Assembly: GCA_937138395.1 (NCBI GenBank) | Contig: CAKZPB010000119.1 | Span: forward strand, 1-48,685 | Direction: 5' to 3' | DNA from: an uncultured Pseudomonadota bacterium | Lineage (GTDB): Bacteria; Pseudomonadota; Gammaproteobacteria; Xanthomonadales; Wenzhouxiangellaceae | DNA length: 48,685 nucleotides | In this document: in pieces, positions 26,170 through 41,293 of the stretch | Position numbering within the stretch: the stretch's first letter is position 1 | Layout: every line of letters starts with the position of its first letter | Translations under genes and position numbers: made by a program | The notes under the pieces: generated by a model | What the model was told of the DNA's origin: nothing | Databases searched by the model: none | Seen by the model: the letters and a program-made list of their open reading frames with translations, nothing else

Positions 26170-26553
26170 TTCAGCAGCCTTTGATTAACCTTGCTCGCAC
26201 CTGACGGGCATGACTGGGAGCTCGTTAGCCGGCGAAGTTGGCGTGCTTTAAAGTAATGCAATCGGATTTTGCGAGACATCACTTTGACTGCAGCAACCTG
26301 TTTGGTTTTATCTGGCAAATCAAGTCCACGACTTGCGCTGCAGGCATAGGGCAATCGGATGCTTGAATCCATCATCAAACCATGACTATTGGCCGTCGAC
26401 TTCGACGGCCTTTTTGTGCAATGATTTTTGTCTGAATACTCATGTTGAATACGCCGGGTCCGGCGGTACTGTGTTTTTCTATGCGGTATTGATCAGCCTC
26501 GTGTGTTTAATGGACTGCTTTTGCAACGAATAATTGAACAAGGATTCAATCTC
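26170..26553. other. 384-base intergenic region with an isolated terminator
   Basis: No gene of convincing length or codon use. It contains an intrinsic terminator at 26391-26415, 222 bases beyond the preceding stop, then an AT-rich stretch leading to the serine hydrolase start. The segment before the terminator could be a long 3' untranslated region or a small RNA. A weak promoter-like pair (TTAGCC 26225-26230, TAAAGT 26249-26254) is the only support for a separate transcript. Confidence 0.5.
26391..26415 (+). terminator. Strong intrinsic terminator
   Basis: Perfect 8-base stem GGCCGTCG / CGACGGCC with an ACTT loop, followed by TTTTT. Orientation is plus, closing whatever is transcribed from the TIR-TPR block or from a small RNA start upstream. 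Confidence 0.85.
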
Positions 26554-28242
26554 ATGATTCGAAGTGCCATGATCTCATCGGCGATTGCATTATTATGCTT
26601 GGCCGGTGCTGCCGCAGCCGACACCGAGTTTGAATCTCGGGCCACTGACATGCTCCAGACTGTTTTTCCAGATGACGCGCCGGGTGCCGTGGCAGTGGTG
26701 AGCCGAAACGGCGAGGTCATTTTCAATCGGGCGTTCGGCATGGCGAATATAGGCCTTGAGGTTTCGGCAGAAACTGATCATATGTTTCGCTTGGCATCGG
26801 TGACCAAGCAATATGCTGCGGCAGCGTTGCTGGCATTGATCGAGGATGGTGAGGTGGCGCTGGATGATCCTATTTCCAGATTCCTGCCTGATTTTCCCGT
26901 TGGAGAGGTCACGATGCAGCAGTTGTTGAATCACACATCGGGTATCAAGAGCTATACCAACATTCCCGGGTATATGAGTTCAGAAAAGATTCGTGCCGAT
27001 CTTGGTACAGACGCGCTGGTGGCCGTGTTTGCCGATGAAGCAGTGGATTTTGCGCCAGGCGAACAAATGGAATACAACAATTCAGGCTATGTGCTGATCG
27101 GTGCCGTGATTGAGGCGGTGTCGGGCCAGCCCTGGAATGAATTCATTCGAGAACGGCTGCTGTTGCCGCTGGATATCGAACAGACCGATGCATATGACGA
27201 TAATGCGATCGTGCCTGGACGCGTGCAGGGCTATGCCGGTCCGGCTGATGCGCCGCAGCGCGCTCCATTCCTGTCGATGACGCAACCACATGCGGCCGGT
27301 GCCTTGATGGGAACAGCCGCCGCAGTCGATCGCTGGTCGTTCGCGCTGCATACCGGCAAAGTGCTGGGTGATGACCTCTACCAAGCGATGATCACGCCTC
27401 AAGGTGCGGCAGTGAATGCAATGGGTGGTCATGGCTATGGCTATGGTCTTTTCATTGGTGAGTGGTTCGGCCAGCCGGCCTATTATCACGGTGGTGGTAT
27501 CTTCGGCTTTACGACGCACACCTTGTGGTTGCCGGAAGAGCAATTATCGGTCGTGTTGTTGAGCAATCGGGCCGGACCAGGTTGGGGCACGCAGGATATC
27601 TCGCTGCGCCTGGCTGGACTCGCTACCGGACGTGCCTATCCAGTAGACCGGGCAGCAGTCGAGATGAGCGACGCTGATCGGGCCCAATTTCACGGAACCT
27701 ATCGAATTGACGACGACACTGTTCGCACCATCCGTATCGAAGATGGACGGCTGATCAGCCAGCGCCAGGGCAGCCAGGACTTCACCGTGTTTCCGGTTGA
27801 AAATGACCGCCTTGCGTTCGAGAACTCACTCGCATCGTATTCGGTCGAACGCGATGACGCCGGCAATGTGACTGCGGTAGCCCTGCATACCGGCTGGGGT
27901 GGCGAGCCGGAGCGGGCCGTCAGGATCAGTGACGAGATTCAGATACGTGAAACCGTCGAAGTCGCTGAAGAAGATTTGCGGCGCTTGGTCGGCAACTATC
28001 AGTTACAGCCTGGTTTTGTGCTGTCAGTCAGCATCAATGCGGGCCAGCTGCAGGTTCAGGCAACCGGACAGGGGCCAATTCTGATGCAGGCCGAGTCCAG
28101 CGCCCGATTCTTTAACACGCAGGTCGGTGCCGATATTGCGTTCGAGCTGCCTGCATCGGGCTCTGCCACCAGCCTGACGCTGTTCCAGGGCGGCCAGGAA
28201 ATGCCTGCCCCAAGAATTGAAAAGGCCTCCGAGAATGAGTAG
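26554..28242 (+). CDS. Exported serine hydrolase (beta-lactamase class C / DD-peptidase fold)
   Basis: 562 residues from ATG 26554, with AAGGA nine bases upstream. The signal peptide is cleaved near LAGAAAA-DTE (residue 22). Active-site motifs: Ser82-Val-Thr-Lys85 in FRLASVTKQYAA, YNNSGYVLIG as the Tyr-x-Asn element, and YHGGGIFGF as the third. About 200 residues of beta-rich sequence follow the catalytic domain, as in D-aminopeptidase-like relatives. Predicted periplasmic. It is a distant paralogue of the membrane-tethered hydrolase at 9510 and lacks that protein's C-terminal helices. Substrate unknown: peptides, esters or beta-lactams are all possible for the fold. Confidence 0.88.
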   Translation: MIRSAMISSAIALLCLAGAAAADTEFESRATDMLQTVFPDDAPGAVAVVSRNGEVIFNRAFGMANIGLEVSAETDHMFRLASVTKQYAAAALLALIEDGEVALDDPISRFLPDFPVGEVTMQQLLNHTSGIKSYTNIPGYMSSEKIRADLGTDALVAVFADEAVDFAPGEQMEYNNSGYVLIGAVIEAVSGQPWNEFIRERLLLPLDIEQTDAYDDNAIVPGRVQGYAGPADAPQRAPFLSMTQPHAAGALMGTAAAVDRWSFALHTGKVLGDDLYQAMITPQGAAVNAMGGHGYGYGLFIGEWFGQPAYYHGGGIFGFTTHTLWLPEEQLSVVLLSNRAGPGWGTQDISLRLAGLATGRAYPVDRAAVEMSDADRAQFHGTYRIDDDTVRTIRIEDGRLISQRQGSQDFTVFPVENDRLAFENSLASYSVERDDAGNVTAVALHTGWGGEPERAVRISDEIQIRETVEVAEEDLRRLVGNYQLQPGFVLSVSINAGQLQVQATGQGPILMQAESSARFFNTQVGADIAFELPASGSATSLTLFQGGQEMPAPRIEKASENE

Positions 28243-28286: not shown

Positions 28287-29027
28287 CTATTGATTACCGG
28301 AGCCGTCTGATTTGATCATCGGCTCGTCGGTCTCCCTGCGACCGTCATACCAGAGATCCAGCCCTTCGCGTCTGCGACCCGCCGCAAACCCGCCCAAAAT
28401 AAAATGGCCGATGGTTCGCCACTGCTCTTTCCTGCTGTAGAGCCGCCATTTACGTCCCGAAGTCACGACCGGCGTTTTCAGTACCTTGAAGGGGCCCTGG
28501 CGCTTGAGAGCGCGACTCAGGTGGATTTCTTCCGAGGCATAGTAGCGCTCATCGAAGCCGCCAACGGCCTCGAAGGCTGAGCGGCGACTGTAGATAAAAC
28601 AGCCGGCAGCCCATCCTGTCATGCGCCAAATGGCCATAACGACAATCAACAGCACGCGCTCGGGAAAACCGGGAGCATCGTCGATGCGTATGCGGGCGCC
28701 TCCAGCGGTAGCGCCTGCATCCAGCGCATCGAGCATTTCGTGTATCAGCACTGCATTGATCTGCGTATCTGCGTCCACAAATACCAGGATGTCGCCAGCA
28801 GCTTCGGCTGCGCCGGCGTTGCGAGTCGCTGCAATCTGCCGGTGGTCAACGCGGATCACTCGAGCTTCGTAAGCCGCTGCAATGGCTGCGGTTTCGTCAT
28901 TCGACGCGTCATCCACCACGATCACCTCATAAGGCCATTCGATGGCTTCTGCAGCGCGATGGATTGTTTCCAGGCAAGCACTGATTTCTGATGCTTCATT
29001 ATGCGCAGGAATAACAAACGAAATCAT
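28287..29027 (-). CDS. Family 2 glycosyltransferase
   Basis: 246 residues, GT-A fold. ISFVIPAHNEASEISACLETI opens the protein, VIVVDDASNDETAAIA gives the nucleotide-binding Asp pair, and ILVFVDADTQI holds the metal-binding Asp-x-Asp. FDERYYASEEIHLSRALKRQG contains the ED-like acceptor base region. A hydrophobic stretch (VLLIVVMAIWRMTGWAAG) could touch the membrane. Donor and acceptor are unknown. It is divergent from the envelope cassette at 29265 and convergent with the serine hydrolase. Function as a lipid or surface glycan transferase is inference. Confidence 0.88.
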   Translation of the reverse strand: MISFVIPAHNEASEISACLETIHRAAEAIEWPYEVIVVDDASNDETAAIAAAYEARVIRVDHRQIAATRNAGAAEAAGDILVFVDADTQINAVLIHEMLDALDAGATAGGARIRIDDAPGFPERVLLIVVMAIWRMTGWAAGCFIYSRRSAFEAVGGFDERYYASEEIHLSRALKRQGPFKVLKTPVVTSGRKWRLYSRKEQWRTIGHFILGGFAAGRRREGLDLWYDGRRETDEPMIKSDGSGNQ

Positions 29028-29247
29028 TAGGGTTCAATCGGCTTGTTTGATCGGTTCCAAGTGCGACAGCCTAATGGATTCATGCAAAAAACACGACAAC
29101 AACCAGAGACTGCGTGTTGTCGCGTGTATCGCCACTCGTTCAATGACGACCGTTCTGCGATCGCAATCGGCATCAGGTGTTTGAGGTATGCATCCAGTGA
29201 AGGGTGAAGGGGCCGGCCTGCGTATAGCAATGTAACCAAGCAAAAAT

Positions 29248-29260
29248 AAGAACGGTTCTT
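29248..29260. promoter_or_regulatory. Palindrome overlapping the ribosome-binding region of the envelope cassette
   Basis: AAGAACGGTTCTT, two perfect 6-base arms around a central G, ending four bases before the ATG at 29265. It could be an operator for the divergent glycosyltransferase/hydrolase spacer or a hairpin that hides the start. A related GAACG-G-CGTTC occurs at 32640-32650 inside the same cassette. Confidence 0.35.
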
Positions 29261-29264
29261 TGCC

Positions 29265-30260
29265 ATGCACATCGTACGCCAAGATCAAGCCAACCTTCCG
29301 CTGGCAACTGCAGATCTGGAAAATCAATGCGGTGCGTCAACTACACCGACGCTGCCGTCCGGAAAGGTTGCTCGCTTGACGCCGATGCTCAAAGCCTATA
29401 CCGGCGCGATACGCGGCCTCGATCGACTGGCTCCTGGTTTGACCACCCAATTATTGCTGAAATTATTTGTACGGCCGCGACGCCGACGCGGGCGTGATTA
29501 TCGGGACAATCTGCCGGCCGGCGCGCAGCGCCTGGCCATTGACTACCGCAGCCAGTCGCTGACCGGCTGGTGCTGGGGCAGGCGTGGCCCAACGGTACTG
29601 CTCGTGCATGGCTGGGAAGACCACAGCGGCACGATGCTGAAACTAGTCAATCCTCTGCGCGAACGAGGCTACCGTGTTCTGACGTTGGATGCGCCGGGTC
29701 ATGGTCTGTCGCCGGCGATGGATACACACTTGATAGACACAAGCGATGCGCTGGCTGCTGTGCTGGAGCAGTCAGGTGGTTGCTCGGCCATTATTGCTCA
29801 TTCCTATGGTGCCGCTGCTACGGCACTGATGCTTGCTCGCTTGCCACAGTGGATGCCGCAGCATCTGACGCTGGTCTCGCCGATGCTGGATATTCTCCAG
29901 CATCTGGCCATTTTTGCTGGCATTGCAGGCCTGTCTCCGGACGGTTGGCATCGATTGCAGCGCCGTGTTGGCGAGCGTTTGGGCCAACCGCTGGAGAGCA
30001 TCAGCACCCTGGATGCGGCCGTGCAGCTTCAGACGCCGGGGTTGATTGTTCACGATCGAAATGACCCCTTGATCCCATATGCGATCAGTGCTCGTCTGGC
30101 GGAGTGCTGGAGCAGTGGAGAGCTACTCGCCACCCAGGGTCTGGGTCATCGTCGGATCCTGAGCTGCGCGCGCGTTGTGGATGAAATCCTGGATCGAATG
30201 GATGTCAATTTGAGCACTTCGGTTTCAACCACCAATTACGACCTGGAGCGACGTCCATGA
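29265..30260 (+). CDS. Alpha/beta hydrolase, first gene of envelope cassette
   Basis: 331 residues. Hydrolase core from about residue 105: VLLVHGWEDHSG (oxyanion loop), LDAPGHGLSP, nucleophile Ser in IAHSYGAAA, acid in VHDRNDPLIPY and His in GLGHRRIL. A basic segment (RPRRRRGRDYR, about residue 71) precedes the core. No signal peptide is visible, so it is cytosolic or membrane-associated. Its stop overlaps the start of the MMPL permease (ATGA at 30257-30260), implying linked production. Inference: it may make or trim the lipid or ester that the permease moves. The substrate is not deducible. Confidence 0.85.
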   Translation: MHIVRQDQANLPLATADLENQCGASTTPTLPSGKVARLTPMLKAYTGAIRGLDRLAPGLTTQLLLKLFVRPRRRRGRDYRDNLPAGAQRLAIDYRSQSLTGWCWGRRGPTVLLVHGWEDHSGTMLKLVNPLRERGYRVLTLDAPGHGLSPAMDTHLIDTSDALAAVLEQSGGCSAIIAHSYGAAATALMLARLPQWMPQHLTLVSPMLDILQHLAIFAGIAGLSPDGWHRLQRRVGERLGQPLESISTLDAAVQLQTPGLIVHDRNDPLIPYAISARLAECWSSGELLATQGLGHRRILSCARVVDEILDRMDVNLSTSVSTTNYDLERRP

Positions 30261-32623
30261 ATACAGGAATACCGATCCAATCTGCCCGACTGGGAAACAA
30301 ACTCCGCAGCATTCTGAGGCAGTCCATCATGCGTCCGGTAGTTGTCCTGATGACCTGCCTCTTGCTGTTGATTCCGCTTGGCGCGGGTTTGACCAAGATT
30401 CAGAAAGATCCGTCGGTCGATGCGTTTGTCCCCAGTGATCACCCGGCTGCTGCTGCGCGTGATCAGGCGCGTGAGTGGTTTGGTCTGGAAGACCCAATCA
30501 TTGTTGGCTTGATCGGTGATCACGGTCAATCGGTGTTTACGGTCGAGGGATTGACCGCACTGCGTATGTTGCATCAGAAAATCAAGGCCCTGCCAGACGT
30601 GCGCAGCGCTGATGTGATCAGCGTGCACAGCAAACATGCCATCAGCGGCAACAACGGTGATCTACTGGTAGACCCCATTATTGAAGATGGTCCGGTCACG
30701 CTCCAAACCGCGGACCTGGCGCTGGACCGGCTGCGCAGCATGCCAATGTTGCTTGGCTTGCTGGCCAACCACGATGGCACGGTCGCCACCATTATTGCAC
30801 CGGTCAATGACCCGAATCGGGCCAGTGTGGTCTATGAGCAGATTGTTGCCCTGAGCGAGCTCGCTCCTGCCGGGATGTCGCTGCATGTGGCGGGAGTTGC
30901 TGGCATGAACGCGCGCCTGGCCGATATTGTCAATACCGATACGCGCATCTTCATTCCGGCCGCGATGGTGACCGTCTTGCTAATCGTCTGGTTTGCTTTG
31001 CGCAAGCCCATCGCAGTCGTCGGGCCGCTGTTCGTGATTGCCGGTTCAGCGGTCACTGCGCTGGGTCTGTTGGGCTGGAGTGGTGCAGATTACTATCTGA
31101 TTACCTCGGCTTTGCCGGTGGTGATCATGGCGCTGGCAGTGGCCGACAGCATGCACCTGTCGGTCTACTACCTGCGCTATCGCAGTGAAGATACCCGGCT
31201 CAGTAGCTCACAGGCGATTGAGCTGGCGTTACGGCACACCTGGCTGCCGATTTCTTTGACCAGTGTAACCACGATGGCAGCATTTGCTGGCCTTTCGATA
31301 GGCGCTGATATGCAGCCGATTCGTGAGTTTGGCCAGTTTGCTGTCGTGGGTGTGGCGGCTGCCTGGATACTGAGTTTGACCGCATTACCGGCCATTATTG
31401 TGCTGACCAACCTGAAACCGGCGCCTCAAGTCGGTGTGGCAAGCAATCGCAATATTCATGCTGCCGGACTGTTGGATCGGCTACTGCGCTCGATTACCCA
31501 ATTGTCCTTGCAACGGCCAATTGCGACTTCGCTGGGCGTGCTTGCGTTGATCGGTACATTGGTGATGTTCGCGATGGATGCGCGCTTTGATTACGAGCGC
31601 AAACGGTATTTTCAGCCAAACGATCCGGTCAACGTGGCCGATCAGGCGATCAATCAGACGCTGGGTGGCATGAATTTTCTGGATGTCACTGTCACAGCCC
31701 CGGATGCGGGTGGAATCATGACAGTAGATGCGCTCCTGGCGCTGGCCGAACTGCGCGCGGCCATGGACGATCTGCCACAGGTTGTGCACGTCTCCGGTAT
31801 TGACCAGTCGATTGCCAAAATGCACGAAGTGTTGACGGACGCCGCACCCGGCACTTTGCCCGAACGTGCGCTGGCACCTGCTCAATACATGTTCTTGTAT
31901 GAGGCATCCAGTGAGCCCGAAGACTTTCGGCACGAGATCGATTATGACCATAGTCGCGCGTTGATTCGTGCGCAGTTGGCCAGCGATCAGTATTCCGTTA
32001 CTCGGCCCGTAGTGCGCGAGCTTGAAAAGATCGTCACTGCGTGGTCGGCGAAGTCGGGGCTGAACGCTGCCGTCAGTGGTCGCGTAGCCGTCAACGAAGG
32101 ATGGATGAGCCTGCTGGCTGAACGCCACTTTCTGGCACTGGGCCTGGCTGCCCTGTTGGTTTTTCTGACCTCGGTCATGGCGTTTCGCGCTTTGGGGCCC
32201 GCATTGCTGGCGATGGTGCCGGTCGGTATTGGTGTCCTGTTTGTGTACGCCACGATGGGCTTGCTGCACGTCGATATCGCACCGGCCACTTCAATGACTG
32301 CCGCTATTGCGACTGGCCTGGGCGTGGATTTTGGTATTCACCTGATTGCCTATGTGCGCAAACAACTGCAGGCCGGAGCTTCGCTGGAGGAAGCGCTGGC
32401 CGGCCGCTACCTGCTGGTCGCCCGGGCTTGCTTCTTTTCGGCCGTGGCGCTCGGCGTGGCGTTAGCAGTCATGGCCTTGAGTGGTGCGCCGCCGTTGCGC
32501 TGGTTCGGTGTGCTGGTCTCGGCCGGTGCATTCGGAAGCCTGATTGGTGCAGTGGTAATTCTTCCGGCGCTGCTTGTGCTAAGCCGCCCACTGGTGATCT
32601 GGAGACTCCGCCATGCATCGTGA
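30257..32623 (+). CDS. MMPL/RND-family lipid or hydrophobe exporter
   Basis: 788 residues in two similar halves. The first membrane helix (about 27-46) is followed by a periplasmic domain to about 225, then five helices to about 385. A second cycle has one helix near 415-435, a periplasmic domain to about 620, then five helices to the end. MALAVADSMHLSVYYLRY and the matching GLGVDFGIHLIAYVRK carry the membrane Asp residues expected for proton coupling. This is the size and plan of MMPL/HpnN-type RND pumps that move lipids, not the larger AcrB type. It overlaps the upstream hydrolase, and the LolA-like and barrel genes follow on the same strand. Confidence 0.92.
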   Translation: MNTGIPIQSARLGNKLRSILRQSIMRPVVVLMTCLLLLIPLGAGLTKIQKDPSVDAFVPSDHPAAAARDQAREWFGLEDPIIVGLIGDHGQSVFTVEGLTALRMLHQKIKALPDVRSADVISVHSKHAISGNNGDLLVDPIIEDGPVTLQTADLALDRLRSMPMLLGLLANHDGTVATIIAPVNDPNRASVVYEQIVALSELAPAGMSLHVAGVAGMNARLADIVNTDTRIFIPAAMVTVLLIVWFALRKPIAVVGPLFVIAGSAVTALGLLGWSGADYYLITSALPVVIMALAVADSMHLSVYYLRYRSEDTRLSSSQAIELALRHTWLPISLTSVTTMAAFAGLSIGADMQPIREFGQFAVVGVAAAWILSLTALPAIIVLTNLKPAPQVGVASNRNIHAAGLLDRLLRSITQLSLQRPIATSLGVLALIGTLVMFAMDARFDYERKRYFQPNDPVNVADQAINQTLGGMNFLDVTVTAPDAGGIMTVDALLALAELRAAMDDLPQVVHVSGIDQSIAKMHEVLTDAAPGTLPERALAPAQYMFLYEASSEPEDFRHEIDYDHSRALIRAQLASDQYSVTRPVVRELEKIVTAWSAKSGLNAAVSGRVAVNEGWMSLLAERHFLALGLAALLVFLTSVMAFRALGPALLAMVPVGIGVLFVYATMGLLHVDIAPATSMTAAIATGLGVDFGIHLIAYVRKQLQAGASLEEALAGRYLLVARACFFSAVALGVALAVMALSGAPPLRWFGVLVSAGAFGSLIGAVVILPALLVLSRPLVIWRLRHAS

Positions 32624-32633
32624 GACTCTGAAT

Positions 32634-32658
32634 GTTTCTGAACGGCGTTCGTTTCTGA
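32634..32658. promoter_or_regulatory. Direct repeat flanking a palindrome between permease and LolA-like genes
   Basis: GTTTCTGA occurs at 32634-32641 and 32651-32658, 17 bases apart, around GAACGGCGTTC (32640-32650; arms GAACG/CGTTC). It lies in the 105-base gap before the LolA-like gene. A regulator-binding site or an RNA hairpin is possible; no clear promoter is seen with it. Confidence 0.3.
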
Positions 32659-32728
32659 CGGAAAGGCCGAACATGATTTGGCCTACATCAGCGCCGAGCA
32701 ATGATCGTTATAGTCGGGAGTTTAAAAA

Positions 32729-33694
32729 ATGAGAAACAACGTGACCGCTGAATCCCTGTTGCGACGTACCTTTGCGGGCGGCTCGCTGCATTTTAGCTCG
32801 CATGCTCGGAGCGGCCAAGATACGCTCGCCGAAGTCACAGCGAGTCATCCTGCAAGGAGACCGTCACGACCACTCAGACGTATTCAGAGGTTCCCTCGTT
32901 TACTACTGATGCTGCTGCTGTATTCGAGTGTGGTCGCCGCTCAGGACTGGACCGAGAATGCTGAAGGTCGCGTTTTAGGCCAGGCTGTTTATGAACGGCC
33001 GGCCAGTATTGGACGTGCCGGTGACATGCACTTCAAATTGACCAACAAGCGCGGACGCAGTCGCGAGCGCCTGGCCATGATGGTGCGAACCCAGGACGAA
33101 CACACGACCCGGGTGGCGATCTTCTTTAAATCACCTGCGGCAATTCAGAATACTGCATTCCTAAGTCATGAGCACGATCACCAGGAAGACGATAGCTGGT
33201 TGTATCTACCGGCCACCGATCGGGTACGTCGTCTACCTGCAGCAGAACGTGGTGATGCATTTATCGGCTCGGATTTAAGCTACGGAGATATTCGCGACAA
33301 CTTCCGTTTTCCGACTGAGCACTGGCGCTTTCGGTCAACCGGCATGCGAACAAAAAATGGCAAAGATCTAAGGGTTCTGGAAGGTCTGGCGCGAAGTGAG
33401 GAAAGTGCTCGTGAGATGGGCTATGGCCGCTTTGAAGCACTGATTGACGAAGACACGCTGTTTCCGGTTGAAGTGGCCTATTTCGATGTCTACGACCAAC
33501 CGCTTAAGCAGACCGAGGTTATGGAAATTGGTCGGGTCGGGGATGCATGGGTGGCGTTGGCCTTTTCGGTCCGCAATCTGCAAACGGGCCATCGTACTGA
33601 CATCACCTTTGAAGGAATGCGGGCCGTGCCGAACCTGGATGAGCGGGTATTTCAGCCCGCTGCACTGGTCGACGGTGTGCCGAGGATTCGCTAG
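32729..33694 (+). CDS. Outer membrane lipoprotein-sorting (LolA-like) periplasmic protein
   Basis: 321 residues. The ATG at 32729 is set by GGGAG eight bases before it, yet the signal hydrophobic core only appears at residues 57-70 (LLLMLLLYSSVVA), leaving an unusually long basic N-region. The mature part has RAGDMHFKLTNKRGRSRERLAMM, IFFKSPAAIQNTAFLSHEH, DDSWLYLPATDRVRRLPAAERGDAFIGSDLSYGD and a final DERVFQPAAL. This is the LolA-like fold family often placed beside MMPL pumps. It probably carries a hydrophobic cargo across the periplasm from the permease to the outer membrane; that is inference from family and gene order. Confidence 0.88.
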   Translation: MRNNVTAESLLRRTFAGGSLHFSSHARSGQDTLAEVTASHPARRPSRPLRRIQRFPRLLLMLLLYSSVVAAQDWTENAEGRVLGQAVYERPASIGRAGDMHFKLTNKRGRSRERLAMMVRTQDEHTTRVAIFFKSPAAIQNTAFLSHEHDHQEDDSWLYLPATDRVRRLPAAERGDAFIGSDLSYGDIRDNFRFPTEHWRFRSTGMRTKNGKDLRVLEGLARSEESAREMGYGRFEALIDEDTLFPVEVAYFDVYDQPLKQTEVMEIGRVGDAWVALAFSVRNLQTGHRTDITFEGMRAVPNLDERVFQPAALVDGVPRIR

Positions 33695-35032
33695 ATGGTT
33701 TCTTTTCAATTGCGCAAAAACCATCGCCTGCTGATTTTGCTATTGATGGTCGGTCTTCTAGCGCCGGTGACACCGGCTTTGGCAGGACTCGAGCTGGTTT
33801 CGCATCGAACCGAACTGGATTACTGGCTTGGCGTGGACGGCGAGGAGGGGCGGATTGCGCTGTCCCGTCTCAGCATTCGGCCCGAAATCAAGTTGCGATT
33901 TGACCAGGGTTGGCGCCTGGAGGCGGCAGGGCGTTTCGAGGCTGCACGAGATCGAACCGGGTTGGGTACCGTTGAAACCTACTCGTCAGCATCCAGGCCA
34001 TTGATCGACAACGATGACGTCCGACTTGAAATCGACCGGCTGGTCTTGAGCCGCAGGATTGGCGATCATCGCCTGAGTTTCGGCAAGCAGACCATTGCAT
34101 GGGGCGTGCTTGATGGAATTCAGATCACCGATCGATTCGACCCGGTGCGGCGGCGTGATTTCGTGCTGACCGAAGTTCGACCCGAGCGCCTGGCGCGTTG
34201 GGGTCTGCGCTGGCAGCGTGAGGGTGAGGGGCTGAACGTCGATCTGGCCGTTGCCTTTGATCCGACCGTTAACCAACTGGCCAATGCCGGGGATCGATTT
34301 CAGCCGCTGGCATCCAGGCTGCTGGGCGGTCTTGCTATTGATCCAGGGTCTGCCGATATTCCAATTATGCAGAGTGAGCGCGATCGCTATTGGCACGATG
34401 CGACACTCGGACTGCGCCTGAGTCGCCGCATTGGACGTGCCGATGCCAGCCTGTTGTTCCTGTCAGGCCCTGATCCTGAACCGCTGCTACAACTGGTCGA
34501 CCTGGATGGCAGTCAGTCGGTGATCAATCTGGAACATCCACGTCGCATGCTGATTGGCGGCACGCTCGAATTTCCAGCCGGCAGTCATGTCTGGCGATTG
34601 GAATTGGCCCATAGTCCCGATCAAGCCATCAATACTGAAAGTGAAATTCAATTGAGCAGCGACGAACGTGGCCGAACCCTGGCCGGAATAGGTATGGACT
34701 GGAATGCGCCAGGTGGCTGGTTTATCAATGCTCAGCTTGCAGTTGACCATTTGAGTTCAGGTAGTCCAGTGGCTGTGAGGCCACGCACCGATGTGATTTC
34801 AACATTGCGCATCCAGCGCAGTATTGCCCAGGACACGATCAAACTGCGATCCGAACTGCTGACTTCGCTCAGCGATGCCGACGGCGTGCTTCGCGCTTCA
34901 ATGGACTGGCAATATAGCGATCCGCTCCGCCTGAGTATTGGTGCAGACTGGTTGTTTGGCACACGAGACGGCCTATTCGGACAATATCAAGATGCATCAC
35001 GGGCCTGGCTGCGAATGCGCTTCACGTTCTAA
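33695..35032 (+). CDS. Outer-membrane beta-barrel protein of the MMPL cassette
   Basis: 445 residues starting directly after the LolA-like stop codon. Signal peptide MVSFQLRKNHRLLILLLMVG with cleavage after TPALA (about 30). The remainder alternates short amphipathic strands (IKLRFDQGWRLEAAGRFEAARD, HRLSFGKQTIAWGVLDGIQITD) and ends RAWLRMRFTF with a terminal Phe, the usual signal for barrel assembly. It resembles DUF1302-type porin-like barrels that accompany MMPL pumps. Predicted as the outer-membrane end of the cassette, or a porin-like sink for its cargo. Confidence 0.82.
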   Translation: MVSFQLRKNHRLLILLLMVGLLAPVTPALAGLELVSHRTELDYWLGVDGEEGRIALSRLSIRPEIKLRFDQGWRLEAAGRFEAARDRTGLGTVETYSSASRPLIDNDDVRLEIDRLVLSRRIGDHRLSFGKQTIAWGVLDGIQITDRFDPVRRRDFVLTEVRPERLARWGLRWQREGEGLNVDLAVAFDPTVNQLANAGDRFQPLASRLLGGLAIDPGSADIPIMQSERDRYWHDATLGLRLSRRIGRADASLLFLSGPDPEPLLQLVDLDGSQSVINLEHPRRMLIGGTLEFPAGSHVWRLELAHSPDQAINTESEIQLSSDERGRTLAGIGMDWNAPGGWFINAQLAVDHLSSGSPVAVRPRTDVISTLRIQRSIAQDTIKLRSELLTSLSDADGVLRASMDWQYSDPLRLSIGADWLFGTRDGLFGQYQDASRAWLRMRFTF

Positions 35033-35275: not shown

Positions 35276-35854
35276 ATGACTGAAACCGCAATTACACAGC
35301 TATTGAGCCAGGCTGCTCAGGGGCAGGCTGGTGCACAGGACCGATTGATCGCCGCCGTGGTGCAGCGGCTCGAGCTTATGGCCGGGCGGGAAATGGCCGC
35401 CGGAAATCGCGGTGGGCTGCATGGCTTGACAATGGAACCGCGCATGCTCGCTCACGATGCATTGTTGAAAATTCTTGAGCGCCCTTTGGATTTTGAAAAC
35501 CGACGGCATTTCTTCTCCTACGCGAGCAAAGTGATGTCGCGCTGCTTGATCGACTATCAGCGCAAACGACTGGCACAGAAGCGAGGCGGCGATCGGTTTC
35601 AGGTGACGCTCAGCGAGTTGTCGACTGACATTAGTTTTGATTTGCTCGATGTACCGAAAGTGCTTAAGGAGCTCGAGGCTCTGGATGAACGAAAGGCCGA
35701 GCTGGTCGGTTTGCGCGTGTTCTGGGGTGCCAGCATGGAAGAGATTGCCGACATTCTCGACATTTCCCTGTCAACCGCAGAGCGTGATTGGCGCTTTACC
35801 CGCCAATGGTTGGCTCGACGCCTAGATGCCGATCACAATCGCATGAGCTCTTAA
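35276..35854 (+). CDS. ECF sigma factor of the PF07638 (ECF43-like) type
   Basis: 192 residues. Region sigma-2 spans about 20-100 and includes MLAHDALLKILER and HFFSYASKVMSRCLIDYQRKRLAQKRGG. Sigma-4 spans about 130-185 with the helix-turn-helix GASMEEIADILDISLSTAERDW. The acidic patch usual in sigma-2.2 is replaced by a less charged AHDALLK stretch, as in the group activated by phosphorylation from a Ser/Thr kinase (EcfP with PknT in Vibrio parahaemolyticus). A Ser/Thr kinase gene lies convergently 101 bases downstream. No anti-sigma gene is present. Target promoters are unknown. Confidence 0.9.
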   Translation: MTETAITQLLSQAAQGQAGAQDRLIAAVVQRLELMAGREMAAGNRGGLHGLTMEPRMLAHDALLKILERPLDFENRRHFFSYASKVMSRCLIDYQRKRLAQKRGGDRFQVTLSELSTDISFDLLDVPKVLKELEALDERKAELVGLRVFWGASMEEIADILDISLSTAERDWRFTRQWLARRLDADHNRMSS

Positions 35855-35955: not shown

Positions 35956-38505
35956 CTATTCACCAGACAGCTGCTGTGACAGTCTGTCGAATAAATACAT
36001 CGCCTCCAGCTCGACCGTTGGCCGGGAGCGCACAGGCATTTTAAAATTGCCGATCGCATCGGGGTTTTGTTGAATCTCGACGTATGCATCTGCCAGGGCC
36101 AACGTTTCATTCCAGCCGGATTCCTCGGGCAGCTTTGATACTTGTGCTCGCAGCGCTTGAAGCTGCTTCTGCATTTCGACAGTGCTGCCTGATTCCAATT
36201 CAACAAGGACGCGGAATAATTTGTACTCCGGGGGTAGATTGACGCCTCCAGTCAGGCGAGAAAGAATTTCCGCACTCATTTCGAACGCTTGTGCGGCAGC
36301 GTCAGGCTGTCCCTGATGCAGCAGTGATCGCGCCAGCAAATAGGCACCGCGAGCGGTTACCTGGTTCTCACCAAGTAGCTCTAGATCCTCGGTCACTATC
36401 TTGCGAGCAAGGCGTTCAGCGTCGATTGGCCGGTTTTGATCAAACAACCAGAGTTCCGCCAGCCGTGCATGCACAATATTCCGACCAAAGCTGAAATCCG
36501 GTTGATCAACATAGACCTGGAGCATGTCTTCAAGCACTGTTGCGCTGCCGGCCAGGTCGCCCTGCAGTCGCCGAATGGTCATCATGCCGGCCAGATTTTC
36601 AATTTGTTGAGCGGCATTCGGGCTGGACACGCCAAACTCCTGATCCCGCAGTCGATAGAGTGCTTCGGCTCGTTCAATGTCTTCCGGTTTTCGTGTTTGG
36701 GTTGCAATTCGAATCGAAACATTGAACCGGTCAACGGCCGACCTTTTTATGCCACTTTCCATGTCATCGAGCACTTCGCGCAGGACTGGAAGCGCTTCAG
36801 CGCGTTGACCTGAGTCAAAAAGACTCGAAGCATATAGTTCGCGGCCAGCGGCGCGCATACCTTCAGATCCGTAGCCGGCTTCCAGCCATCCTTTAAAAAT
36901 CTCGTGAGCTGATTCATAGTCGCGCCGGAAATAGAAATTTCGGCCGAGAGCGAGACTGAGCGCGGTCGCTGTATCCCCACTTTCTTCCCAATTGGCATGC
37001 TGTGAACGCCATCGTTCCATTAACGTCTCGGTCAATGCCTGCCCGCCGTCTTCATTGGCGAATTGCTCAAGCAATAGATCTGAATATACCCGCTGCCCGA
37101 GCAGAAAGGCATTGGCTAGTTCGTATTGGCTCTCGGCCTCATGCTGAGCCGCAGTGGCGCGCTCGGCTTCAAGCATGGCTTGCTGTGCCGCCTGCTGAGC
37201 ACGCTGTTCGGCTTCTCTGGCCTGAAGAAATCCTGTTGCTGAAATAATCGTCGCTACAACCAGCGCAAGGCTGACGAACGCACTTGCGCCAACCATCGTT
37301 CGATTACGTCGCACGAACTTGCTCATCCGATAGGCTAGTGATGGCGGTTGGGCCCGCACCGGCTGATTATCGAGATAACGCTTGAGATCATCAGCCAGTT
37401 CTGAGGCGCTACCGTACCGCCGCTCGCGGTCCTTGGCCAGCGCTTTGAGCATCACCGAATCCAGGTCGCCTTTGAGACGACCCTGCCATTGTTGTGTCGT
37501 TGAATCGCTGATCGTGTCTGCTGAAGGTTGTAGTCGACTTGGGCGAGGCGTTTCGCCTTCACGGATTTGCTTGCACATCGCTTCAAAACCGAGCTCACGC
37601 AACTCCTTGCCGGAAACTGGCAGCGTGCCGACCAGGAGTTCATACAGCACCAGACCCAGCGAATACACGTCTGAGCGAGTGTCAATATCGATTTCGCCCA
37701 ATGCTGCTTGCTCCGGGCTCATGTACTCTGGTGTGCCAATCAGTTCACCCAGTTGAGTCAGTTGAGTCCGTTCTTCGGCACCAGCTTCAAACACGCGCGC
37801 AATACCGAAGTCAATCACTTTCGGTGCTGGTCTGCTGCCCTGATCAGGGACCAGGATATTGGAAGGTTTCAGATCGCGATGTATAAGACCCTTGCGGTGG
37901 GCGTGTTGAACAGCTTCGCATACCGGTAAGAGCAGCCGGATTCGCTCCTCCAGGCCCAACGCTCGCTTGGCTGCCCACTCGGTAATGGATACACCTTCGA
38001 TGTATTCCATGGCGAACCACGGACGACCGTCGTCCAGGCTTCCAGCGTCGAACACTCGCGCGATATTCGGGTGTTCCAGCACAGCCAGTGCTTGGCGCTC
38101 GGCCCGGAATCGAGTCAGTGCGTCCTGGCTGTCCAATCCGCGACGGGAAAGCTTCAGCGCCACTCGGCGCTGCACCGGCTCCATCTGCTCGGCCAGATAC
38201 ACCCGACCCATGCCGCCTTCGCCAATTGGACGAACCAATCGGTATGGACCGATGGTTTCAGGATCACTCGGGCTGGAAAAATTCTCGATCGAAGCTGCCA
38301 TCCCGCCACGACCGGCCAACGAATCGAGCGCACTGGCATCCCGTGCGCCATGCTTGTTTGGTTCAAGCATCGCAATCAACTCCGAATGCAGGTCGGGGTC
38401 TTCGGCTGCCAAGGCGATGAGCCGTGCTTTTCGGTCTTCGGCCGATAAGCGATCGAGTTCATGGAACAAGGCTTCCAGACGCTGGAAACGATCAGAATCT
38501 GTCAT
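35956..38505 (-). CDS. Membrane Ser/Thr protein kinase with TPR-type C-terminal region
   Basis: 849 residues. Kinase domain at about 87-375: Gly-loop GEGGMG (95-100), Lys118 in RVALKL, catalytic loop HRDLKPSN from His209 to Asn216, DFG at 232-234, and APE-like TPEYMSPEQ (258-266). All catalytic residues are present. One membrane helix at about 404-426 follows, then a coiled helix (QARE...AQHEAE) and helical repeats to the end. Topology: kinase inside, repeats in the periplasm. Its gene converges on the ECF sigma gene, and pairs of this kind are known to act by sigma phosphorylation. The short N-terminal region (1-80) resembles the usual lead of such proteobacterial kinases. Confidence 0.93.
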   Translation of the reverse strand: MTDSDRFQRLEALFHELDRLSAEDRKARLIALAAEDPDLHSELIAMLEPNKHGARDASALDSLAGRGGMAASIENFSSPSDPETIGPYRLVRPIGEGGMGRVYLAEQMEPVQRRVALKLSRRGLDSQDALTRFRAERQALAVLEHPNIARVFDAGSLDDGRPWFAMEYIEGVSITEWAAKRALGLEERIRLLLPVCEAVQHAHRKGLIHRDLKPSNILVPDQGSRPAPKVIDFGIARVFEAGAEERTQLTQLGELIGTPEYMSPEQAALGEIDIDTRSDVYSLGLVLYELLVGTLPVSGKELRELGFEAMCKQIREGETPRPSRLQPSADTISDSTTQQWQGRLKGDLDSVMLKALAKDRERRYGSASELADDLKRYLDNQPVRAQPPSLAYRMSKFVRRNRTMVGASAFVSLALVVATIISATGFLQAREAEQRAQQAAQQAMLEAERATAAQHEAESQYELANAFLLGQRVYSDLLLEQFANEDGGQALTETLMERWRSQHANWEESGDTATALSLALGRNFYFRRDYESAHEIFKGWLEAGYGSEGMRAAGRELYASSLFDSGQRAEALPVLREVLDDMESGIKRSAVDRFNVSIRIATQTRKPEDIERAEALYRLRDQEFGVSSPNAAQQIENLAGMMTIRRLQGDLAGSATVLEDMLQVYVDQPDFSFGRNIVHARLAELWLFDQNRPIDAERLARKIVTEDLELLGENQVTARGAYLLARSLLHQGQPDAAAQAFEMSAEILSRLTGGVNLPPEYKLFRVLVELESGSTVEMQKQLQALRAQVSKLPEESGWNETLALADAYVEIQQNPDAIGNFKMPVRSRPTVELEAMYLFDRLSQQLSGE

Positions 38506-39046: not shown

Positions 39047-41293
39047 TTGACTACAGCAACTAGATCTAACCACTGCCACTGTGTGAATGTGTGGCCTCCA
39101 CTTTCTGATTATTCAAACGAATTGCGGCTGGGAACGTCCGAATTTCCTGTTGCGGTAACAGGGTGTATAGGTATGTCTATCAAAACAGTATGGATCTGCA
39201 TGTTATTAATCTGTTGTCAGCAGCTCGCTGCGGCAACCATTACGGTCAATACGGCGGACAACACCATTCTTGCCGATGACGGCTATTGCACATTGACCGA
39301 AGCAGTGCTGGCCGCCAACACCAACACGGCTTCTGGCACGACAGCAGGAGAGTGCGTGGCAGGCGAGGCTTGGCCGGTTCAAGATCAGATCATTTTTCAA
39401 TTGAGCATTTTCCCGGCCCATTTTTTTATTTTCGATACCCTTGAGTTGAACGAACCGGTCAAGATTGAAGGGCCGGGTGCTGCCGTGATGAAACTGACCA
39501 ATTTGGCCGAAACACGTGTTTTCAATATTCAGAACTTCCAAGTGGATGTCGAGTTCGATATCAGCGGGATAACCCTGTTGGATAATATTCTGCGGGCAGC
39601 GACCGGCGACTATGGCGGTGCCATGCTGGTAACGCTCAGTGCAGGCAGCAGCCTTCTGCTTGAAAACATGGTGTTCTTCAATAATGGTTCAGAGCGTGGC
39701 GGCGGTGCCATTGGCTTGTTTGGCGGACAAGACAATTCAATCACGATTCAAAATTCCACGTTCCAGGAGAACTATGCAGGCAATTTTGCTGCCGGGAATG
39801 TGCTGGGTGGCGGTGCAATCTTTGTAGGAACAAGCCAGAACGTCGTGATTGAAAACAGCAGCTTCTTCAATAACAATACCTTTCATGTGCCGTTGGCTCA
39901 GCCCCAGAGCGACGCGGCCGGTGGCGCCATACTGATCCGGTCCGGTCAGGGTTTTACCAGTACAGTAGATATTTTTCAATCGACCTTTTCAAACAACAGC
40001 ACCACCGGCGTCGGCGGTGCCATTGCCCTCGGCGGGCCAGGGTTTCCTGCTGACAATTCTGAATTGAGCATCCGTCATTCGACCGTTGTACTCAATGAAG
40101 CGGATCAGAACGATGATGAAACCGCGGTGCCCGGTGGCGGAGGCGTGTGGTCGTCCTCATCCGAGGCCGTTCAGGTGTATAACTCAATTGTGGCCCAAAA
40201 TGTTGACAATGCAGATTCCCCGGCGCCCGACCTGCATGGCAGCACAGACAGCTTCGGTTTTAACCTGATCGGTAATAACAGTACGGTAAGTGGTGTATTT
40301 CCCGCCGGTCAACCAAATGCCAATGATGACTTGGTGGGCTCCAGCGTGACGCCGCTTGACCCTGCTTTGGCTGCACTGGATAATTACGGCGGGCCGACGC
40401 AGGTTCATGAGCCCTTACTCAACAGCCCGGTGCTCGACCAGGGTAAGTGCGCCTCGCGCATTACGGATCAGCGTCTGTTTCAAAATATCCAGACCGGCCT
40501 GCGGACAATTGATATTATTACTTTTTCCAATGCTTCAGACGGCTGCGATATCGGCGCTGTCGAACGCTTTGGCGCCAGCTCGGACCCCGTTCCCGAGGCC
40601 AATGATGACAGCTATCTGGCGTTTGAGGATCAACCGCTGGTGATACCGGCAGTCGATGGGCTATTGTTCAATGACGTAGATGATGATCCACTGATTGTCA
40701 TCGACTTGAGTCTGGCCGACCAAACCAGGAAGCGGCTGCAGGGACAGGTAACCGCTGGTGCGGATGGCGCATTTGTTTTTGAACCCTCAAGCCCGGATTC
40801 TGTCGGGCCGGCCGAATTTGTCTACACCATCAGTGACACTTTGAATACGGATTCGGCCGAGCTGCTGATTCAAATAGTTCCGGTCAATGACCCACCGGTT
40901 TTTAACGCTGGCAGCAAGGTGATTACAGCCATCGCCGGAGAGCAAACGATAGTCGAAGATTGGGCGATCCAAATCAGTTCGGGTCCTCCCGATGAGCAGA
41001 TACAGTCGGTCGAATTTATTATTACACCAGTCAATGTGCCCGGTGGTTATTTCACCGGCATACCCAGTCTCGATATCAGCGGCTCCAGTGCGGATTTGAG
41101 CTTCGAGCTCGCTTCAGACGCGGTCGGCAATGCCGTGGTGAGCGTCGTGCTCCAGGATAATGGTGGCACATCCAATGGTGGACTCAACCAGTCCGATGAG
41201 GTCATCGTTACAATCCAAAGTGACTCGGACCTGATCTTCAGCGACAGTTTCGAAATTGTTCAGAACCGCAATAATTCAACATCAATCTATTGA
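39047..41293 (+). CDS. Secreted right-handed beta-helix (CSLREA-like) protein with cadherin-like domain
   Basis: 748 residues from TTG 39047, which has a perfect AGGAGG six bases upstream. ATG 39173 would give a conventional signal peptide (MSIKTVWICMLLICCQQLAAA) but has only a weak ribosome site. Near residue 80 a CTLTEAVLAANT segment matches the CSLREA lead. About 90-490 form a beta-helix rich in Asn/Gly turns (GGAIGLFGGQDNSITIQNSTF, NVVIENSSFFNN). A cadherin/VCBS-like domain follows (about 510-610: ANDDSYLAFEDQPLVIPAVDG, VNDPPVF). The tail is SDLIFSDSFE plus twelve residues. A surface or secreted adhesin or structural protein is the likely role; no enzyme motif is seen. Confidence 0.85.
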   Translation: MTTATRSNHCHCVNVWPPLSDYSNELRLGTSEFPVAVTGCIGMSIKTVWICMLLICCQQLAAATITVNTADNTILADDGYCTLTEAVLAANTNTASGTTAGECVAGEAWPVQDQIIFQLSIFPAHFFIFDTLELNEPVKIEGPGAAVMKLTNLAETRVFNIQNFQVDVEFDISGITLLDNILRAATGDYGGAMLVTLSAGSSLLLENMVFFNNGSERGGGAIGLFGGQDNSITIQNSTFQENYAGNFAAGNVLGGGAIFVGTSQNVVIENSSFFNNNTFHVPLAQPQSDAAGGAILIRSGQGFTSTVDIFQSTFSNNSTTGVGGAIALGGPGFPADNSELSIRHSTVVLNEADQNDDETAVPGGGGVWSSSSEAVQVYNSIVAQNVDNADSPAPDLHGSTDSFGFNLIGNNSTVSGVFPAGQPNANDDLVGSSVTPLDPALAALDNYGGPTQVHEPLLNSPVLDQGKCASRITDQRLFQNIQTGLRTIDIITFSNASDGCDIGAVERFGASSDPVPEANDDSYLAFEDQPLVIPAVDGLLFNDVDDDPLIVIDLSLADQTRKRLQGQVTAGADGAFVFEPSSPDSVGPAEFVYTISDTLNTDSAELLIQIVPVNDPPVFNAGSKVITAIAGEQTIVEDWAIQISSGPPDEQIQSVEFIITPVNVPGGYFTGIPSLDISGSSADLSFELASDAVGNAVVSVVLQDNGGTSNGGLNQSDEVIVTIQSDSDLIFSDSFEIVQNRNNSTSIY

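Follow-up and report, generated by a model that had tools for sequence, protein, structure and literature searches.

A conserved permease, LolA-like carrier and outer-membrane barrel, with an optional hydrolase, as a probable trans-envelope exporter in a Wenzhouxiangellaceae bacterium

A stretch of 48,685 nucleotides from an uncultured bacterium of the Wenzhouxiangellaceae (assembly GCA_937138395.1, contig CAKZPB010000119.1), referred to here as the window, is one entire contig (G000:C119) of a 2.84 Mb assembly. It carries a four-gene cassette encoding an alpha/beta hydrolase, a permease of the resistance-nodulation-division (RND) superfamily, a LolA-like carrier and an outer-membrane beta-barrel (Table 1); the last three genes are referred to as the trio. 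The four genes are real. Their open reading frames (ORFs) span 29265-35032 on the + strand, and an ORF check returned exactly the coordinates and features of the original prediction, which had described four same-strand genes, an overlapping hydrolase/permease pair, an exported LolA-like protein and a barrel ending in Phe. Signal peptides were assigned by eye. The hydrolase stop codon and the permease start codon share bases (ATGA), giving an overlap of four bases; only this first gene pair overlaps. A gap of 105 bases separates the permease from the LolA-like gene, and the barrel ORF starts at the base right after the LolA-like stop codon. Homologues of the hydrolase lack a clear equivalent of residues 1-40 of its ORF, and the ATG at 29385 may therefore be the true start. 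In the LolA-like ORF, about 55 residues precede the hydrophobic core of the presumed signal (32729-32950). Since a GGGAG element ahead of the gene backs the ATG at 32729, this N-terminus may be an extended signal peptide. A scan for sigma-70 promoters gave no match in the 29027-29265 gap upstream of the hydrolase, and over the region it gave 6 matches against 3.8 (standard deviation 2.1) in shuffles, so no sigma-70 promoter is claimed.

Table 1. Genes of the cassette and the adjoining candidate regulator (positions in the window).
Feature	Position	Strand	Remarks
Alpha/beta hydrolase	29265..30260	+	331 aa; Pfam Hydrolase_4; signal peptide not evident by eye
MMPL/HAE3-type RND permease	30257..32623	+	788 aa; paired Asp D297 and D691 conserved
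LolA-like periplasmic carrier (PF17131)	32729..33694	+	321 aa; long N-terminal region ahead of the presumed signal's hydrophobic core
DUF1302-related outer-membrane beta-barrel	33695..35032	+	445 aa; N-terminal signal by eye; C-terminal Phe
ECF sigma factor (Sigma70_ECF)	35276..35854	+	Candidate regulator; directly downstream of the trio

The permease matches Pfam MMPL with 93 bits (cut-off 20.5). Its tied best NCBIfam match, TIGR00921 (HAE3), scores 134.3 bits, below the cut-off of 351.9, and the protein is therefore termed HAE3-type rather than assigned to HAE3. It retains 91 of 120 near-invariant columns, including both membrane Asp residues, although its branch on the tree is long (1.59). 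A model made on a homologue in which the permease is fused to a LolA-like domain (L070), not on the window permease, resembles MmpL4, MmpL5 and HpnN. The hopanoid transporter HpnN shares the RND superfamily and the fold with the cassette permease, but works without periplasmic or outer-membrane partners (PMC6394551), and an assignment to HpnN was rejected on NCBIfam scores (58.9 against 751.85 and 43.6 against 1100). Compared with G006, the nearest relative with the trio and the sole close one (permease 77% identical over the portion present), the ratio of non-synonymous to synonymous changes (pN/pS) is 0.23, 0.40 and 0.38 for permease, LolA-like gene and barrel. Three of the four genes thus look to be under purifying selection; the comparison covers these three, as the G006 contig ends inside the permease.

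The LolA-like protein matches PF17131 (140.6 bits, cut-off 30) far better than DUF1329 (39 bits, cut-off 23.1), and it has no match to Pfam LolA (PF03548) at E<=0.01. Its nearest solved relative is LolA3 of Porphyromonas gingivalis (9TP6, E 2.8e-27). Published work is cited throughout from partial texts of the articles; that on P. gingivalis LolA3 describes a hydrophobic groove and weak binding of LolB (PMC13103446), and deletion of lolA3 in Flavobacterium is reported to give no phenotype (PMC11885536). Database annotation names the family an outer membrane lipoprotein-sorting protein, which would make the cassette a second lipoprotein-sorting (Lol) pathway. This is highly improbable. The genome's single PF03548 match, the canonical LolA, lies on contig C125, away from the cassette, and the LolA-like gene has the RND permease and the barrel beside it rather than the LolCDE ABC transporter. 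Lipoprotein sorting is set aside because of the separate canonical LolA and the LolA3 data. The genome holds one PF17131 protein and one barrel of the cassette type, both in the cassette.

An AlphaFold2 model of the barrel built from 60 homologues is confident (predicted local distance difference test, pLDDT, 90.9; predicted template modelling score, pTM, 0.87). Foldseek ranked the alginate exporter AlgE first for this model (E 3.5e-12, template modelling score about 0.53), and VIA-align placed Occ/OprD channels at the top (Z up to 22.7) with AlgE tied or nearly so (up to 21.8). Searching solved structures with a profile of the barrel alignment gave no match. The modelled fold is Occ/OprD/AlgE-like, although fold likeness alone proves no function. 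Such a barrel and a LolA-like fold fit an inner-to-outer membrane route for hydrophobic cargo; the original prediction had proposed such a route for a lipid or ester made or trimmed by the hydrolase.

The occurrence of the trio was surveyed in a species-genome collection (84,980 species per the tool description) scanned with the permease family, which gave 93 relatives, and the best 80 loci (L059-L138) were kept. The loci were thus chosen by permease; barrel counts include the L089 and L132 barrels, found by direct frame reading. A LolA-like domain is visible in 76 of the 80 loci, fused to the permease in 54 and separate, as in the cassette, in 22 of these 76 informative loci. The other four (L075, L082, L136, L137) end inside or just past the permease. 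The barrel is present in 70 loci, and in eight of the ten misses the locus ends 94 bases or less from the last core gene. On a tree of 79 loci and the window, with the four early-ending rows scored as split, the fused/split label requires seven changes. Among 60 related genomes, full-length permease relatives (31-36% identity) occur in three (G051, G040, G044), each with the permease and LolA-like protein as a single ORF of 1056-1092 aa as called, followed by the barrel. The trio is rare in the bacterium's own family, with the barrel in 2 of 43 genomes, its own included. By fusion and neighbourhood, the permease, carrier and barrel are a conserved unit.

RND permeases have a cytoplasmic C-terminus. 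The fused form carries an Arg-rich stretch and a hydrophobic helix between the permease and the LolA domain; with a permease ending in the cytoplasm and a helix following it, the LolA domain would lie in the periplasm. The fusion of pump and shuttle in many relatives suggests that they work jointly, and the trio is very probably one machine for hydrophobic cargo.

The trio was also sampled from the barrel side. At E<=1e-20, a profile built from these barrels matched 23 genomes out of 115 in the class; 32 matches lie outside the window, and the 20 regions read contain 21 of them. An MMPL gene is found in 14 regions, a LolA-like gene in 14, all three genes in 10 and neither partner in two, in one of which the barrel itself was uncalled by the gene caller. 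In L156 the LolA-like gene lies several genes away on the opposite strand. L158 (4-9191) shows another operon type, with a tetratricopeptide repeat (TPR) protein, a protein of about 300 aa without a Pfam match, MMPL, DUF1302 and LolA_like. L159, L161, L162 and L165 resemble it by gene order and length, and L163, L166 and L167 are of a similar type without a called LolA-like gene.

Several described systems share parts of this arrangement. MMPL, PF17131 and a DUF1302-type barrel are consecutive in the cassette, as in TOL_3187/TOL_3188 of Thalassolituus oleivorans and A1S_0116/A1S_0117 of Acinetobacter baumannii. TOL_3187/TOL_3188 are induced by a long-chain alkane and comprise MMPL and LolA-like domains followed by a porin-like protein in the same order, although TOL_3187 is fused whereas the window pair is split, and the likeness is one of description rather than sequence (PMC6304351). 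The published interpretation is that the porin protein is exported by the pump (PMC6304351); the pattern seen here suggests a pump-carrier-channel set rather than porin export.

When plasmid records were searched by tblastn with the L091 fused protein, a full-length relative (26%) appeared in three chromosome-size A. baumannii records. Locus L148 (A. baumannii, NZ_CP104448.1, 1270217-1287372) stands in a 4.1 Mb record filed as a plasmid. Its RND gene encodes a fusion of SRPBCC-type (N-terminal Polyketide_cyc2), MMPL and LolA domains and is followed by the barrel (424 aa). The other neighbours are an acyl-CoA dehydrogenase, a non-ribosomal peptide synthetase (NRPS, two ORFs), a 621 aa protein with epimerase-type and alpha/beta-hydrolase domains, and a phosphopantetheinyl transferase (PPTase, 255 aa). 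The match of this operon to A1S_0113-0119 rests on gene order, domain content and protein lengths (424, 621 and 254/255 aa) rather than on sequence comparison. In the published description A1S_0117 is porin-like with 424 aa, A1S_0118 has 621 aa with epimerase and alpha/beta-hydrolase domains, A1S_0119 has 254 aa, A1S_0113-0119 form one polycistronic transcript, and loss of A1S_0114 abolishes the secreted C15-acyl lipopeptide Ac-505 (PMC5376624). Strains carrying polar, uncomplemented insertions in A1S_0112 or A1S_0115 lost motility, pellicle and surface hydrophobicity (PMC4457973). The cassette resembles A1S_0116/A1S_0117/A1S_0118 in having MMPL-LolA, barrel and alpha/beta-hydrolase domains on consecutive genes (PMC5376624; PMC4457973). 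Unlike the cassette, the Ac-505 operon has the extra Polyketide_cyc2 domain on its fused RND protein, an NRPS, an acyl-CoA dehydrogenase and a PPTase alongside, and a hydrolase joined to an epimerase-type domain, and the role of its RND protein is one that the accessible text only proposes (PMC5376624).

AmeABCD of Castellaniella defragrans combines an HAE3 permease, a periplasmic protein of the LolA superfamily (DUF1329) and a DUF1302 outer-membrane protein (PMC6394551). By the description available it differs in having AmeC (COG4447) and a DUF1329 carrier of 451 aa, and in the part of the text at hand no hydrolase is named (PMC6394551). The scan of 10 ORFs at the cassette gave no Pfam match to an AmeC-like (COG4447) protein, and the cassette is therefore not classed as AmeABCD. 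ApeK-ApeL-ApeM-ApeN of the Escherichia coli aryl polyene cluster, compared by description, include a thioesterase, a LolA-like chaperone, an RND transporter and an outer-membrane partner proposed to bring an acyl product to the outer membrane, but a LolB-like DUF3261 protein replaces the barrel (PMC8253772). Iron-responsive operons of P. gingivalis and Prevotella intermedia place an MMPL transporter beside a protein bearing the PF17131 family name; also by description, they differ from the cassette in their TetR and ABC proteins, and the available portion of the article names no barrel (PMC10434189).

The cassette probably exports a small molecule, hydrophobic or acylated, across the whole envelope at the expense of the proton gradient. 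In the proposed route, the cytosolic alpha/beta hydrolase would release or trim an acyl compound, and the MMPL/RND permease, presumably using its paired Asp residues to draw on the proton gradient, as in its family, would load the compound on the periplasmic side. The LolA-like protein, which may dock at the permease as the natural fusions suggest, would receive it in a hydrophobic groove predicted by homology and bring it to the DUF1302-related barrel. The barrel, whose fold is predicted, could then pass it into or through the outer membrane. The hand-over, the outward direction, the acyl nature of the cargo and the part played by the hydrolase are all putative; outward is the likelier direction of transport.

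The findings that weigh against an exporter concern the trio, the hydrolase and the neighbouring genes. Two loci (L107, L117) are real exceptions in which a different gene stands where the barrel is expected after the LolA-like part, and the permease is missing from 6 of the 20 barrel-first regions. Confidence is low for the linker in the fused L070 model, where a hydrophobic helix at residues 781-799 is modelled with modest confidence and is followed by a stretch under pLDDT 50. The window barrel scores 18.4 bits with DUF1302, under the Pfam cut-off of 23.2, while a homologue in L097 scores 68.4 bits; as a barrel the protein is still well supported by its model and by this homologue. No biosynthesis genes were recognised beside the cassette. 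The MarR-type and glutathione S-transferase (GST) genes that neighbour the trio in other clades suit detoxification equally. As a separate observation, an exported protein lies right after the fused permease-LolA gene in L107 (3100-3633); it is AMIN-domain-like by eye and is cut by the contig end.

The hydrolase is of the Hydrolase_4/Abhydrolase type (Hydrolase_4, 60 bits, cut-off 27), with Ser in AHSYGA (from residue 178), Asp in HDRNDP (263) and His in GLGHRRIL (292). That it acts on the trio's cargo is a tentative proposal, at somewhat less than even odds. Hydrolases of the window type occur in 5 of the 80 loci, on several branches and each two genes or less from the trio, with no other copies in the flanks; their scores are 105-453 bits, with the next-best hydrolases reaching 29 at most. 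They lie directly upstream of the trio in L106 and L091 and directly downstream in L077 and L089; in L111 the gene is divergent and two genes up. The L089 copy, found by direct frame reading, is truncated to about 115 residues close to the end of the contig. Four of the five linked genomes were searched, and in each the linked copy is the sole match at E<=1e-15; two of the seven genomes covered by that search have no copy. Another alpha/beta hydrolase subfamily adjoins the trio in eight loci (L071, L076, L078, L080, L082, L085, L088, L104), of which L076, L078, L080, L085 and L088 form one clade on the tree, and 4HBT thioesterases lie directly upstream of the trio in five. The label of a directly adjacent alpha/beta hydrolase of either subfamily, which covers 11 loci and the window and leaves out L089 and the divergent L111, changes at least seven times on the tree.

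The hydrolase could instead be an unrelated operon passenger, with the trio alone forming the unit. The window-type hydrolase is not found in 75 of the 80 loci, some of which end early, nor at E<=1e-15 in G006, whose trio contig breaks inside the permease. In six of the 60 relatives the hydrolase is present, but the 1.5 kb read to either side of it contains no trio gene; one of these (G044) carries the trio on another contig, and G073 has the trio and two hydrolase copies outside the flanks read. Enrichment beside the trio is modest: among same-strand genes, 11 of the 93 next to the trio match Abhydrolase_1, compared with 5 of 145 further off (p=0.016, uncorrected for kinship). The distant set was a random draw of 145 from the 204 same-strand genes at a distance of at least three genes, and genes over 1000 aa were dropped from both sets. 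A hidden Markov model trained on the adjacent hydrolases had given 11/143 against 5/410; it is biased towards its training set and was replaced by the Pfam counts. A passenger is nevertheless rather unlikely, given the four-base overlap with the permease, the five linked loci on several branches, the recurrence of the other hydrolase subfamily and of 4HBT thioesterases, and the hydrolase domain in the Ac-505 operon. The original prediction had counted the hydrolase as part of the cassette and called for a gene-neighbourhood survey of all four genes. The trio was found to be kept together, while the hydrolase is missing or unlinked in most loci and in relatives, and is therefore not obligate by the refuting condition that the original prediction had set. 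Judged from these neighbourhoods, enzymes that cut acyl bonds join the trio repeatedly but are optional.

Among the neighbours of the trio, MarR-type proteins stand out. They occur four genes or less upstream in 46 of the 80 loci (47 proteins, e.g. L110:3586-4065; two longer cluster members are omitted from this count) and account for 27 of the 93 adjacent genes, compared with 5 of the 145 distant ones (p=2e-8). All 47 have an invariant Cys near the N-terminus, the sole conserved Cys column in the alignment. Thiol sensors of the OhrR type use a Cys near the N-terminus, and the MarR-type proteins are likely, by this shared residue, to be thiol sensors that control the trio in other clades. A GST gene lies two genes or less from the trio in 13 loci. 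These neighbours would suit a trio that expels foreign or self-made lipophilic, perhaps electrophilic, compounds, with a hydrolase that inactivates them. The AmeABCD deletion fits such efflux, in that the mutant tolerates monoterpenes less well and, when treated with carbonyl cyanide m-chlorophenyl hydrazone (CCCP), accumulates slightly more Nile Red, although its Nile Red efflux kinetics are almost unchanged (PMC6394551). Detoxification is unlikely for the cassette: MarR proteins of that cluster are absent from the 12 other rows of the window's clade and from the 10 ORFs scanned at the cassette, and the Acinetobacter homologue sits in a biosynthetic operon. The window's clade has another candidate regulator, an extracytoplasmic function (ECF) sigma factor gene directly downstream of the trio in 7 of 13 rows, the window included; elsewhere in all flanks there is one weak match at another position. 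Five of these seven genes are on the opposite strand, so co-transcription with the trio is not general.

Transport could also run inwards: the trio would take up hydrophobic nutrients, for instance long-chain alkanes or wax esters, that the hydrolase would cut after entry. Relatives include Oleiphilus, Alcanivoracaceae and Aestuariicella hydrocarbonica, and substrate-specific channels are among the nearest barrel folds. Uptake is improbable all the same, since the bacterial MMPL/HAE-2 and HAE-3 permeases described in the available part of one account are exporters (PMC8277102), and alkane induction, as of TOL_3187/TOL_3188, is equally expected for a surface-lipid exporter or for efflux.

Export through the trio might extend well beyond the cassette. 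A bolder and tentative proposal is that of a widespread unnamed family of Gram-negative conduits, in which a membrane-tethered RND permease-LolA machine would feed a DUF1302-type channel, export acylated products and repeatedly recruit a cytosolic ester/thioester hydrolase, under the control of Cys-sensing MarR proteins or, in the window's clade, ECF sigma factors. Such a family would unite the alkane-induced transporter, the lipopeptide exporter and the terpene pump. Each component on its own is already known and has a database name; the apparent novelty lies in seeing them as one system and in the tie to the hydrolase. No paper treating the permease-LolA fusion and barrel as one family was found in a search that was thin on subscription journals and did not include bioRxiv. 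For most MMPL-type pumps it is unclear how hydrophobic compounds leaving the inner-membrane RND protein are passed through the periplasm, and the natural pump-carrier fusions offer a ready object for cryo-electron microscopy and crosslinking. The gene trio points to the channel that probably belongs with the pump, while the ties to hydrolases, MarR sensors and a lipopeptide operon narrow the search for cargo.

Other genes surround the cassette. The divergent GT2 glycosyltransferase (28287-29027, - strand; best NCBIfam match TIGR04283, 123 bits, below the cut-off of 182), which the original prediction had suggested might add sugar to the cargo, was rejected as a cassette partner, with no homologue at E<=1e-3 in the 80 loci. 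Upstream of it lies a beta-lactamase-fold protein with a C-terminal DUF3471 (26503-28242). A Ser/Thr kinase with TPRs (35956-38505) is convergent to the ECF sigma factor gene, and a protein of the kinase cluster occurs three genes or less from the trio in five rows, the window included. Beyond it is a large protein matching choice-of-anchor Q and cadherin-like or tandem-95 domains (39047-41293). Related genes are also found on plasmids. In L149 (5944-14490), on Pseudoalteromonas plasmid p1, separate MMPL and LolA-like genes, with no barrel matched by the barrel profile, directly precede a gamma-mobile-trio (GmtY) recombinase region. In L150 (4699-9359), on a plasmid of Haliovirga abyssi (Fusobacteriota), the trio runs in the order DUF1302, MMPL, LolA-like and lies near a ketoacyl-ACP-synthase-like gene and a radical SAM gene.

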